DNA of 64,000 nt, taken from NCBI GenBank assembly GCA_028712475.1, contig JAQTQB010000005.1:107408-171407 (forward strand). Direction: 5' to 3'. Positions 19,964-24,494 of this stretch are shown piece after piece. A program made the position numbers and the translations under genes. This DNA comes from Verrucomicrobiales bacterium. Lineage in GTDB: Bacteria; Verrucomicrobiota; Verrucomicrobiia; Limisphaerales; UBA11358. The notes under the pieces are model-generated. The model was given only the letters and a program-made list of their open reading frames with translations, ran no database searches and was not told the DNA's origin. Each line of letters opens with the position of its first letter. Positions within the stretch are counted from its first letter, which is position 1.

Positions 19964-20359
19964 TTACCCGCCAATCTGCTTCTTGTAATCCTCCGGCGAC
20001 AGTAGCGCATTCAGTTCAGCGGGATCGCTCAATTTGATTTTGAAAAACCAGCCGGCCGCGTAAGGCGCGTTGTTCACCAGCACAGGATTGTCGGTGACAG
20101 GTTTGTTCAGCCCCACAATCTCGCCGCTGACGGGCGAATAGATGTCGCTCGCGGTCTTCACGGATTCCACCACGGCGCAGGCTTCGCCGGCCTTCACCTT
20201 GCGGCCCACTTCGGGCAGCTCGACAAAAACCACATCGGTCAGCTCGGCCTGCGCGTGGTCAGTGATGCCGACGGTCGCGGTGTCGCCGCTGACGCGGACC
20301 CATTCGTGTGATTTGGCGTATTTCAGATCAGAAGGAATGTTGCTCATAAATTTCGGCAT
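19964..20359 (-). CDS. gcvH: Glycine cleavage system H protein
   Basis: GcvH shuttles the aminomethyl group on a lipoyl-lysine between the P, T and L proteins. The 131-residue product has '[11 protein letters not shown]', the lipoylation loop '[20 protein letters not shown]' (Lys in ESVKTAS) and the C-terminal '[20 protein letters not shown]'. Both the ATG at 20359 and one at 20347 are plausible; the first is preceded by GGTGGTG, which may serve as a ribosome-binding site. No gcvP or gcvT is in the window. It is near lipA, which would modify it. Confidence 0.95.
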
Positions 20360-20482: not shown

Positions 20483-21325
20483 TCACCCGAACATTTCCTT
20501 GTTCATCACGCCTTCGGCGACTTTCGTCACGCCGCCGGTCATCACGATCATAAAGTCATCGCCAATCTCGATCTGAATCTGGCCGCCGGGCATGTGGACG
20601 GTGATGGAGCGGTCGCACAGGCCAAGCTTGTGCGCCACGGCCGCCGCCGCGCTGCTGCTGCTGCCGCTGGCCAGCGTGTAGCCGGCGCCGCGCTCCCAGA
20701 TTTCAATCTGGATGTTCGCGCGGTCGAGGACTTTCATGAGCTGCACGTTGATGCGTTTGGGGAATCGCAGATGCGTCTCCAGCAACGGGCCGAGCTGCCG
20801 CGCGAGGTCGGGGCTGATCTTCGGCAGCGGCAGCACGCAATGCGGATTGCCGACGGTGGCGGCGCAAAAACTGAATTTCTGTCCGCGCAGATGAATCGCC
20901 TCGTTGATGACTTCGCGGCGCGGACCGTCCACGGGAATTTCGTCGCTCCAGAAACTCACTTTGCCCATCTCGACGCGCACGACTTTGCCGCGTTGCGAAA
21001 CCGTGGCCTTCACCACGCCGCCGGGTGTTTCGATGGCGAACTCGTCCTTGCCAACGAGTTTTTTATCCCAGAGATAACGCGAAAAAATCCGCAGGCCATT
21101 GCCGCTTTTTTCCGCCTCGCTGCCGTCGGGATTGAAAATGCGCAGGCCGAACGGCGCGTTTTTTGATGGCAGCGGGCCGAGGAGAATGCCGTCCGATCCC
21201 ACGCCGAAGTTGCGGTGACAGATTCTTATGACCTGTTCGGTTGTGAGCGGCGCGGCCAGATCTTTCGGATTGATGACGATGTAGTCATTGCCGAGCGCGT
21301 GATATTTCGTGAAAGCATTCTTCAT
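20483..21325 (-). CDS. dapF: Diaminopimelate epimerase homologue lacking both catalytic cysteines
   Basis: The 280-residue product aligns well with DapF, which converts LL- to meso-diaminopimelate for lysine and peptidoglycan: 'FTKYHALGNDYIVINP', 'RIFNPDGSEAEKSGNGLRIF', 'TVGNPHCVLPLP' and 'WERGAGYTLASGSSSSAAAA'. The family's two catalytic cysteines lie in C-G-N-G-x-R and in the A-C-G-x-G block; here both are serine (Ser74 and Ser220, AGC codons). The start at 21325 (MKNAFTKYHALGN) is preferred over 21352. A possible promoter, TTGAGG (21354-21359) and TATCAT (21332-21337), lies just upstream. Whether it epimerises diaminopimelate or does something else is open; the gene symbol reflects homology only. 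Confidence 0.82.
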   Translation of the reverse strand: MKNAFTKYHALGNDYIVINPKDLAAPLTTEQVIRICHRNFGVGSDGILLGPLPSKNAPFGLRIFNPDGSEAEKSGNGLRIFSRYLWDKKLVGKDEFAIETPGGVVKATVSQRGKVVRVEMGKVSFWSDEIPVDGPRREVINEAIHLRGQKFSFCAATVGNPHCVLPLPKISPDLARQLGPLLETHLRFPKRINVQLMKVLDRANIQIEIWERGAGYTLASGSSSSAAAAVAHKLGLCDRSITVHMPGGQIQIEIGDDFMIVMTGGVTKVAEGVMNKEMFG

Positions 21326-21355
21326 CCGAAGATGATAGCGAAAGAATACCAAACC

Positions 21356-22465
21356 TCAAGCCGTGCCTGCCAGGTCCTTCAGTTTACGAACGCCCTCTTT
21401 TTCCATCCGTTGAAGCAATCCGGTCACGATGCTTTTGGCGATGCCCGGCCCTTCGTAAACCATGCCGGAGTAAATCTGCACGAGTGACGCGCCCGCCGTG
21501 ATTTTTTCCCATGCGTCATCTGCGTCAAAAATGCCGCCGACGCCGATGATGGGCAGCCTGCCCTTCGTCTGCTTGTGCAAATGCCGGATTACTTCCGTGC
21601 TGCGGGCGCGCAGCGGTCTGCCGCTCAAGCCGCCGGTCTCGGAATAAATCCTTTGCAGCACGGCGTCGTTTGTTTGCGGACGGGAAAGCGTCGTGTTCGT
21701 CGCGACAATGCCAGCGATGTGACGCGGGCCGACGAGTTCCAAAATTTCATCGAGCGCCTCGAATGAAAGATCTGGTGCAACCTTGACGAGGATCGGCGGA
21801 CGGTGCCGGGGGTCGGCAGGCTGTGGCCCATTTTGTTCCTGGATGGCCGCCAGGATTTCGTCCAGCGCGGCCTTGTCCTGAAGCTGGCGCAGGCCGGGCG
21901 TGTTTGGCGAACTGACATTGATGACGAAAAAATCCGCCAGATCGCGCAGCGCGTTAAACGAGCTGGCATAATCTCCGGCGGCTTCTTCCAGCGGCGTGAC
22001 TTTGGATTTGCCGAGGTTGATGCCGATGGGATGACCTGGCCAGCGCCGGCGCTTTTTCCATTCGCCAAGTTTTTGCGCAACGGCTTCCGCACCGGAATTA
22101 TTGAAGCCCATGCGGTTCACAATCGCCGCGTCGGCCACGGCGCGGAACATCCGGGGCGACGGATTGCCCGGCTGCGCGTGCCATGTCACGCCGCCAAGTT
22201 CGCTGAAACCGAAGCCCAGCCTTTCCCAGGCGGGAACGGCGGCAGCGTGCTTGTCCATGCCCGCAGCAAGCCCGACCGGATTGGGAAATTTCAGGCCGAA
22301 AACTTCAACGGGCAGTTCAGGTGCGCCGTAAATGCTTCCAATGACACCGCAGGCGAGCCGACTGCGACTGGCGCAGCCAAGCATTGCAAGCGCGGAATTG
22401 TGGGCGCGTTCCGCGTCCTGCGCGAAAAGAAGCGGGCGAACCAATTTTCGATACGGCCAGCCCAT
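21356..22465 (-). CDS. pyrD: Dihydroorotate dehydrogenase (quinone), class 2
   Basis: PyrD oxidises dihydroorotate to orotate, feeding electrons to the quinone pool at the inner membrane. The 369-residue product begins 'MGWPYRKLVRPLLFAQDAER', the N-terminal amphipathic membrane-association region of class 2 enzymes. FMN and substrate residues appear in 'FPNPVGLAAGMDK', 'NRMGFNNSGA', 'VINVSSPNTPGLRQLQ' (catalytic Ser in the N-x-S-x-P-N-T block) and 'IIGVGGIFDADDAWEKITAG'. The start at 22465 is 8 bases after the squalene-hopene cyclase stop; upstream ATGs would overlap that gene. It probably shares a transcript with it. Confidence 0.96.
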   Translation of the reverse strand: MGWPYRKLVRPLLFAQDAERAHNSALAMLGCASRSRLACGVIGSIYGAPELPVEVFGLKFPNPVGLAAGMDKHAAAVPAWERLGFGFSELGGVTWHAQPGNPSPRMFRAVADAAIVNRMGFNNSGAEAVAQKLGEWKKRRRWPGHPIGINLGKSKVTPLEEAAGDYASSFNALRDLADFFVINVSSPNTPGLRQLQDKAALDEILAAIQEQNGPQPADPRHRPPILVKVAPDLSFEALDEILELVGPRHIAGIVATNTTLSRPQTNDAVLQRIYSETGGLSGRPLRARSTEVIRHLHKQTKGRLPIIGVGGIFDADDAWEKITAGASLVQIYSGMVYEGPGIAKSIVTGLLQRMEKEGVRKLKDLAGTA

Positions 22466-22472
22466 TTGATTT

Positions 22473-24494
22473 TCAGTGAAAAGCCTGTTGTCCGCTGGCC
22501 TCGCCATTTTTCCGCACCGCATTGGCGCGGTTGAGAATTTTCCGATAAGTCGCCAGCGCGAGCAGCGGCCAGGCGTTGCGATACATGTCGTATTTCAGAT
22601 AGAACACTTTCGGGAAGCCGGTGCCGGTCGTCTCGTTTTCCGTCCATGAACCGTCAGGGTTTTGCGTGCGCGCCAGATACTCGATGCCGCGTTTGAGCGC
22701 GGGATTCTCCGGATCGTCGAACGCGCACAAACCCATGACGGCCCACGCGGTCTGCGAGGCGGTGCTGGGACCGCAGCCTTTGAAAACGGGGTCGTCGTAG
22801 GTGTTGCAGCGCTCGCCCCAGCCGCCGTCCTCGTGCTGGACGCTTTCGAGCCACGAGCGCGCACGGAGCAGCCACGGCTGGTTCATGTTCAAATTCATCG
22901 CGCGCATTCCGCGCAGCACCTGCCATGTTCCGTAAATGTAATTCACACCCCAGCGGCCATACCACGAGCCGTCCTCTTCCTGATGCTTGCGGATATATTG
23001 CAGCGCGGCTTTGACCTGCGGATGTTCGAGGCTGACATTTTCGTAGCCGAGCAGTTCCAGAATGCGCGCGGTGATGTCGGCACATTCGGGATCCAGCATG
23101 GCGTTGTGGTCGGCGAAGGGAACTTTCTCCAGAATATTTTTCGTGCAATCCTTGTCGAAGGACGCCCAGCCGCCGTCTTTGCACTGGAAGGTCATCATCC
23201 ACTTCAGGCCGCGCTGGAAACATTCGTCGCGTTTTTTCGGATCGGCCGTCGGGATTTTCCGCAAAGCCAGCAGCACCATCGCCGTGTCGTCCACGTCGGG
23301 GTTCCATTTGTTGTTGAACTCAAAAACCCAGCCGCTCGGCTCGACCTTCGCGGGATTTTTGTGGATCCAGTCGCCGGCAAAGCGGATTTCCATCCCCATG
23401 AGCCATTCGGCGGCCTTCACGAGCATGGGATGATCGTCGGGCAGTTCCGACTCGGCCAGACACATCAGAACGATGGCCGTGTCCCAGACCGGCGAGAAAC
23501 ACGGTTCGATGCGCACGTCGTCAGCGGTCTCGTGTTCGAGCTTTTTCAGCTCGTGCGCGGCGCGGACGACTTGCGGATGGTCGTCGGGGTAACCGAGGCA
23601 TTGGAGCGCGATGAGCGAATTGAGCATCGCCGGGAATATCGCGGCCAAACCGTCGGCCCCTTCAAAGCGTTCAAGCATCCATTGCTCGGCTTTTCGCAAG
23701 GCGGGTTTGCGGAACGGATGCAAACCGCGACGCGCGAACCGCTCGGCCAGCTTGTGCAGCCGGTCCAGCCAGAGGAAAAAATTCCGCAGCGTGAACCGTT
23801 GCGGATCGGGCGTGAGCGCCATATCCCGTTCGTGAATGCCTTCGGGATATAGCTCGTCCAGGTTCACCTTCACCGGGCGCGTGGGCTTGAAATGGTTGAT
23901 GATGGACAGCGGCACGATCATGCCGCGCGACCAGTTGCTCATGTCCCAGAAATTCACATGGAACCATTTGCCGATGAACAAAACCTCGCAGGGAATCGTG
24001 GGAACGTATTGCCACGGGAAAAGTCCGATGAGCGCGAGATACAGTTTCGAAAACGTGTTCATGCGCGGCACGCCGCCGAAGTGCAACGCGACTTCGCGCG
24101 CCTTCAACATGCGATAGTCCGTCACCGGCACGCCCGCGAGCTTGAGCGCGAGGTATGCCTTGATGGTGGCGTTCACTTCCGACGGTCCGCCGTGGTAGAT
24201 GTTCCAGCCGCCGTCGGCCAGTTGCATCGAGAAGATGTGATTGACCGCCTTGCGCTGCCATTCGGGGTCAATCTTCCCGTTCCAATGATGATATGCCACC
24301 GTGTCGGAAACGAGCGTGGAATCCACCATCAACTCGCCGATCCAATAGCCTTCCGGCTTTTGTATGCCGAGAAGATATTCCTGCGACCGCGAAATGGCGG
24401 CCTCCAAATCCCGGGCGAATTCCTTTGGAAGCCGGACGCCGGCGTTCGCAGGGGCGGGCGGAACCTTGGTTGCACTGTCAATTAACACGCACAA
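22473..24494 (-). CDS. shc: Squalene-hopene cyclase
   Basis: This monotopic membrane enzyme cyclises squalene to hopene, the first step to hopanoids. The 673 residues contain several QW-type repeats (for example 'QKPEGYWIGELMVDSTLVSD', 'QEEDGSWYGRWGVNYIYGTW' and 'QNPDGSWTENETTGTGFP') and the proton-donating D-x-D-D motif in 'PDVDDTAM' (Asp400-Asp403). The N-terminus is slightly long for the family. It is followed closely by pyrD; no hpn operon genes are present. Hopanoid synthesis by this organism is a strong inference, but the squalene supply genes are not seen here. Confidence 0.95.
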   Translation of the reverse strand: MCVLIDSATKVPPAPANAGVRLPKEFARDLEAAISRSQEYLLGIQKPEGYWIGELMVDSTLVSDTVAYHHWNGKIDPEWQRKAVNHIFSMQLADGGWNIYHGGPSEVNATIKAYLALKLAGVPVTDYRMLKAREVALHFGGVPRMNTFSKLYLALIGLFPWQYVPTIPCEVLFIGKWFHVNFWDMSNWSRGMIVPLSIINHFKPTRPVKVNLDELYPEGIHERDMALTPDPQRFTLRNFFLWLDRLHKLAERFARRGLHPFRKPALRKAEQWMLERFEGADGLAAIFPAMLNSLIALQCLGYPDDHPQVVRAAHELKKLEHETADDVRIEPCFSPVWDTAIVLMCLAESELPDDHPMLVKAAEWLMGMEIRFAGDWIHKNPAKVEPSGWVFEFNNKWNPDVDDTAMVLLALRKIPTADPKKRDECFQRGLKWMMTFQCKDGGWASFDKDCTKNILEKVPFADHNAMLDPECADITARILELLGYENVSLEHPQVKAALQYIRKHQEEDGSWYGRWGVNYIYGTWQVLRGMRAMNLNMNQPWLLRARSWLESVQHEDGGWGERCNTYDDPVFKGCGPSTASQTAWAVMGLCAFDDPENPALKRGIEYLARTQNPDGSWTENETTGTGFPKVFYLKYDMYRNAWPLLALATYRKILNRANAVRKNGEASGQQAFH

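Follow-up and report, generated by a model that had tools for sequence, protein, structure and literature searches.

A conserved DapF variant with serine at both catalytic-cysteine positions in Limisphaerales and other bacteria

A diaminopimelate (DAP) epimerase variant, in which both catalytic cysteines of DapF are replaced by serines, is real and conserved in a clade of bacteria; judged from its sequence and genomic surroundings, it very probably functions as a DAP epimerase. Proton transfer by two thiols, at a carbon of very low acidity, is classically illustrated by DapF, which is also an antibacterial target whose cysteines are attacked by covalent inhibitors. A natural Ser/Ser clade in the operon slot of Cys/Cys enzymes would show that the thiols are not required, and would offer a system for testing how hydroxyls perform thiol chemistry. 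The Ser/Ser type further predicts which bacteria should be resistant to thiol-directed DapF inhibitors and oxidants, and in a large part of Limisphaerales and Opitutaceae the automatic annotation as an ordinary DapF with two cysteines is not correct in detail. As engineered Cys-to-Ser relatives are nearly inactive, the mechanism is a real and directly testable question. No description of a natural Ser/Ser DapF was found in the open-access literature, a scope outside which most subscription journals lie.

The gene, its product and the catalytic positions

The gene was found in a stretch of 64,000 nucleotides (the window) from a Verrucomicrobiales bacterium (Table 1). Its open reading frame spans 20483..21352 on the reverse strand. 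The ATG at 21325 gives a protein of 280 amino acids, and an upstream TTG presents a possible extension to 21352, from which a numbering of 289 residues is counted. The serines that are Ser74 and Ser220 from the ATG are Ser83 and Ser229 in the longer numbering, which is used for all other residues. A squalene-hopene-cyclase-like gene (named by eye; window 22473-24494, reverse strand) is located upstream of pyrD-dapF, and a similar gene accompanies Ser/Ser dapF at other loci, for example L139, L161, L166, L181 and L197.

Table 1. Coordinates of dapF, its diagnostic codons and its neighbours in the window
Feature	Position	Strand	Basis or remark
dapF, Ser/Ser-type diaminopimelate epimerase (predicted)	20483..21325	-	TIGR00652, PF01678, AlphaFold, PDB DapF matches
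Ser74 (Ser83) codon AGC, replaces first catalytic Cys	21104..21106	-	codon read and alignment
Ser220 (Ser229) codon AGC, replaces second catalytic Cys	20666..20668	-	codon read and alignment
Lys82 codon	21107..21109	-	invariant in Ser/Ser proteins; Met in 97% of Cys/Cys
Tyr225 codon	20678..20680	-	99% in Ser/Ser proteins; Glu/Ile/Val in Cys/Cys
pyrD, quinone-dependent dihydroorotate dehydrogenase	21356..22522	-	directly upstream of dapF, same strand; context
gcvH, glycine cleavage system protein H	19964..20359	-	downstream of dapF, same strand; context

The protein exceeds the cut-off of the curated DapF equivalog TIGR00652 (246.3 bits, cut-off 114.65). PF01678 (204 bits) is its sole Pfam match; PF05544, the proline racemase superfamily, does not match it and is touched by one of 47 relatives, at E 5e-4. 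The profile of bifunctional DapF/glutamate racemases, NF038284, stays below its cut-off (60.9 bits, cut-off 350). The AlphaFold model (mean pLDDT 92.4) has the DapF fold, in which two helices face the active site, with each serine directly before a helix, and Foldseek ranks DapF structures first, most of them with TM 0.79-0.90. The catalytic cysteine pair, including the cysteine of the PROSITE signature quoted in PMC8225329, is absent from the window protein and from its whole clade. Alignment with solved DapFs (5ha4, 9mro, 3ejx) places both serines, found in the motifs PDGSEAEKSGNGLR and WERGAGYTLASGSSSSA, on the catalytic cysteines. Together with the two AGC codons this bears out the original prediction of a double replacement: we class the protein as a Ser/Ser variant rather than as a canonical DapF with two cysteines.

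The other signature residues had been said to be kept, and this proved true. We take the DAP-binding residues of Haemophilus influenzae DapF to be Asn11, Asn64, Asn157, His159, Asn190, Glu208 and Arg209; their equivalents, Asn22, Asn74, Asn169, His171, Asn202, Glu220 and Arg221, are present in 100% of 120 Ser/Ser sequences, and Asn85, also equivalent to a DAP contact, is invariant in the clade. The clade has its own fixed changes near the active site. Lys82 replaces Met, Gln204 replaces Glu/Asn, Glu217 replaces Arg, Tyr225 replaces Glu/Ile/Val and Ser232 replaces Gly, all beside the invariant DAP-binding residues; Ile89 replaces Cys. Three further cysteines deserve mention: Cys45 is invariant in the Ser/Ser clade, Cys172 is found in 100% of Ser/Ser versus 24% of Cys/Cys proteins, and Cys163 in 92% versus 2%.

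Conservation and spread of the Ser/Ser clade

Order and phylum samples were combined with 80 named relatives, and removal of duplicates left 120 Ser/Ser and 66 Cys/Cys sequences. The conservation of the pair, which the original prediction had proposed to check, is complete: all 120 distinct clade sequences carry both serines, the comparison set is Cys/Cys in 66 of 66 cases, and a mixed pair occurs in no full-length sequence. Both serines are also present in 29/29 intact members of the window's genus that were examined. Two other genomes of this genus (G025 and G026, 94% and 90% complete) give only weak PF01678 matches below the cut-off, so their DapF was either missed in assembly or lost. A branch of length 1.37, with support 100, sets all Ser/Ser proteins apart in a maximum-likelihood tree. 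Their hosts are Limisphaerales, Opitutaceae (those sampled are Ser/Ser), a few Planctomycetota and cyanobacteria, mostly Nostocales.

The codons are informative as to the nature of this conservation. A single mutation does not lead from AGY to TCN serine codons or back, and TGY (Cys) is one mutation away from AGY, TCC and TCT. Among the 120 sequences, Ser83 is encoded by AGY in 97 and by TCN in 23, Ser229 by AGY in 51 and by TCN in 69. Despite the use of both codon families, cysteine was absent from positions 83 and 229 in every one of the 120. With the codon family switched and cysteine never seen, both sites appear to be strongly selected for serine as such. The best explanation is that both catalytic cysteines were changed to serine on one stem lineage and that the pair was fixed thereafter. 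Sequencing error or decay is excluded by the 120 distinct sequences, the codon-family switches, the invariant active site and the 29 members of the genus, and the earlier view of the gene as not decayed stands.

Cyanobacteria with Ser/Ser dapF, mostly Nostocales, are represented by loci L152, L156, L165, L173-L178, L182 and L195. Their sequences nest among verrucomicrobial ones in the maximum-likelihood tree, which suggests horizontal transfer from Verrucomicrobiota. In 10/10 cyanobacterial genomes checked, a Cys/Cys DapF is kept beside the Ser/Ser copy. Common neighbours of the cyanobacterial Ser/Ser dapF were not evident, and neither were plasmid-borne members of the Ser/Ser clade, the plasmid matches listed having no more than approximately 39% identity.

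Place in the DAP pathway

The genome from which the window comes (G000; 3.40 Mb, 98% complete) contains a single PF01678 gene. It had been suggested that a second dapF or a meso-DAP dehydrogenase be sought; the search for a further PF01678 gene found none, and PF16654, the dehydrogenase family, has no match in this genome. DapL (579 bits, cut-off 364.7) and LysA (468 bits, cut-off 297.9) are both encoded. DapL makes LL-DAP and LysA decarboxylates meso-DAP, so that the Ser/Ser DapF is the one recognisable candidate for the step between them. We agree with the original prediction that the chemistry needs an explanation; both catalytic cysteines are serines in the sole DapF. The same sole-copy pattern recurs in several neighbours within the class whose genomes are complete or nearly so and whose DapF is Ser/Ser (for example G319 and G188), and most Ser/Ser-bearing bacteria have no other DapF copy. 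PF16654 is missing from most Ser/Ser genomes tested, with weak matches in G066, G128 and G147; the last combines one DapF, of Ser/Ser type, with such a dehydrogenase-like match. As to the product, Opitutus terrae and three Lacunisphaera strains were found to contain DAP of unspecified stereochemistry, roughly 1/10 as much as E. coli, and thin-layer chromatography of the Lacunisphaera strains gave a negative result for DL-DAP (PMC5303756).

In other Limisphaerales, Ser/Ser dapF heads a dapF-dapA-dapB operon; one example is Pedosphaera sp. locus L161, whose dapA and dapB both exceed their curated cut-offs. Within the order, dapF is directly upstream of dapA in 12/24 Ser/Ser genomes versus 20/39 Cys/Cys genomes (L295 taken as Cys/Cys, two half-read Cys loci counted). 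Outside the window's genus, 26 typed genomes of the order are Ser/Ser, 41 are Cys/Cys and none has both. With one type per genome and a shared slot, the Ser/Ser and Cys/Cys types of dapF act as substitutes for one another, in part at one and the same chromosomal position; no other indirect evidence argues as strongly for a common function. The gene occupies its place in the pathway either as sole copy between DapL and LysA or in the operon; the window's genus, where dapF is not adjacent to dapA, shows the sole-copy arrangement only.

The Mur ligases of these bacteria were surveyed as well. In G000 (L262 = G000:C24:48000-67900; L263:8568-9995), murF and a clear mpl (TIGR01081, 451 bits, cut-off 388.7) are present, murC, murD and murE are absent from the division cluster, and three Mur-ligase-type proteins are found genome-wide. 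In this organism UDP-MurNAc-tripeptide may be made by Mpl from ready-made tripeptide. Some other Limisphaerales have three (G030, G364, G360, G341) and some have six (G386, G431, G406, G346) Mur-ligase-M proteins, independently of DapF type, and MurC/D/E have apparently been lost repeatedly with Mpl retained. A link between Ser/Ser and loss of MurE was rejected: class neighbours pair Ser/Ser with MurE, and genomes of the order may have few or six Mur-ligase proteins whichever DapF type they carry.

Proposed mechanism and comparison with known systems

There is a high probability, in our estimate, that the window protein is a working LL-DAP/meso-DAP epimerase, the only one of its organism, which uses a Ser/Ser pair and probably helper residues. 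The Ser/Ser pair runs through a whole bacterial branch, mostly without another copy, and the protein is therefore probably an enzyme with altered chemistry, not a broken one. To the observed family, fold, sole copy, conservation and operon slot we add DAP epimerase activity as our inference. Such an enzyme would interconvert LL-DAP and meso-DAP for lysine and cell-wall synthesis, and would hold the substrate alpha-carbon where ordinary DapF does, between two helix N-termini. The helix dipole and clade-specific neighbours would activate the hydroxyl of one serine to take a proton, and the second serine would return one on the opposite face, with assistance from Lys82 beside Ser83 and Tyr225 near Ser229. 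This assignment of Ser83/Ser229 as acid/base pair and of Lys82 and Tyr225 as helpers is hypothetical; for a natural cofactor-independent epimerase that works on two serine hydroxyls, enabled by its fixed Lys82/Tyr225 neighbours, we see roughly even chances.

Several facts count against this explanation. Cys-to-Ser mutants retain below 0.1% of activity in PddB (PMC8225329) and are strongly impaired in HisR (PMC11602996). DAP is low in Opitutaceae cells (PMC5303756), dapA is not adjacent in the window's genus, and in cyanobacteria, which keep a Cys/Cys copy, there is no obvious need of the Ser/Ser protein for DAP. The near-inactivity of engineered mutants implies that the residues around the serines have adapted or that the chemistry is carried out by a different residue. 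In the latter case the protein would still be an active DAP epimerase, with the proton carried by Cys45, Cys172, Cys163, Lys82, Tyr225 or His46. These candidates show little or no variation within the Ser/Ser clade; Cys163 and Cys172 are less frequent in Cys/Cys proteins, and Lys82 and Tyr225 are clade-specific. Against this, neither serine ever varies, and each occupies precisely the helix N-terminus used by the corresponding cysteine; many Cys/Cys DapFs, moreover, have Cys45 and Cys172 without employing them as the catalytic pair. We regard proton transfer by another residue as a tentative possibility.

The absence of MurI from several Ser/Ser genomes makes a side activity possible in which DapF also racemises glutamate and supplies D-Glu in MurI's stead, as in Chlamydia trachomatis. 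PF01177, the Asp/Glu racemase family to which MurI belongs, has no match in G000, G364, G360, G386 and G319; it matches most control genomes. Absence of MurI together with presence of DapF is common in the PVC group, where the dual role has been proposed (PMC5885031), but the chlamydial activity requires its cysteines (C72A and C207A fail) and the NF038284 score of the window protein is far too low, so that we consider this role unlikely. Another substrate or reaction, with meso-DAP made by an unrecognised enzyme, appears rather improbable. It would suit the change of both catalytic groups, the second copy in cyanobacteria, the existence of DapF relatives with other substrates (HisR, PddB, O-ureidoserine racemase) and the dehydratase function of Ser/Thr-type members of the proline racemase superfamily (PMC4113996). 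Against it stand the invariant DAP contacts, the dapF-dapA-dapB slot in relatives and the lack of any other DapF in genomes that have DapL and LysA. For these reasons neither of the roles considered in the original prediction, a different substrate or a dehydratase-like function, is our first guess. That the protein is a pseudoenzyme retained for some non-catalytic function, RppH binding for instance, might be argued from the loss of both thiols and the known E. coli RppH-DapF complexes (6d13), but this is very hard to reconcile with an active site invariant over 120 distinct sequences and with sole DapF copies in genomes encoding DapL and LysA.

An oxidative disulfide between the two cysteines switches off DapF of Corynebacterium glutamicum (PMC5296763). 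If Ser83 and Ser229 are indeed the acid/base pair, the Ser/Ser enzyme would be free of this inactivating bond, with a possible benefit under oxidation that might also explain the transfer into cyanobacteria.

Ser/Ser and Cys/Cys DapFs (TIGR00652; A. baumannii 5ha4, cyanobacterial 9mro, H. influenzae 1bwz) are alike in fold, length, DAP contacts, score against the curated model and operon position; they differ in the catalytic pair and in the fixed Lys82, Ile89, Gln204, Glu217, Tyr225 and Ser232 of the window's clade. The H. influenzae mutants C73S and C217S (PDB 2q9h, 2q9j) have the same fold with one catalytic serine, but they are engineered and single, whereas the pair described here is natural, double and accompanied by other changes; Cys-to-Ser replacement in DapF-class enzymes is described as hindering catalysis (PMC12039745). 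Chlamydia trachomatis DapF (NF038284, PMC5885031) likewise belongs to a relative without MurI, yet it is Cys/Cys with a remodelled pocket. HisR, CntK and the Dab racemase PddB (PMC11602996, PMC8225329) are DapF-like cofactor-independent racemases that keep two catalytic cysteines, act on other substrates and are nearly inactive as serine mutants. A natural catalytic serine facing the second base is found in a true epimerase of related fold, the 4-hydroxyproline 2-epimerase B9JQV3 (PMC4113996). This enzyme has one serine (Ser/Cys), another substrate and another family (PF05544), and it sets a precedent for catalytic serine in a DapF-like fold.
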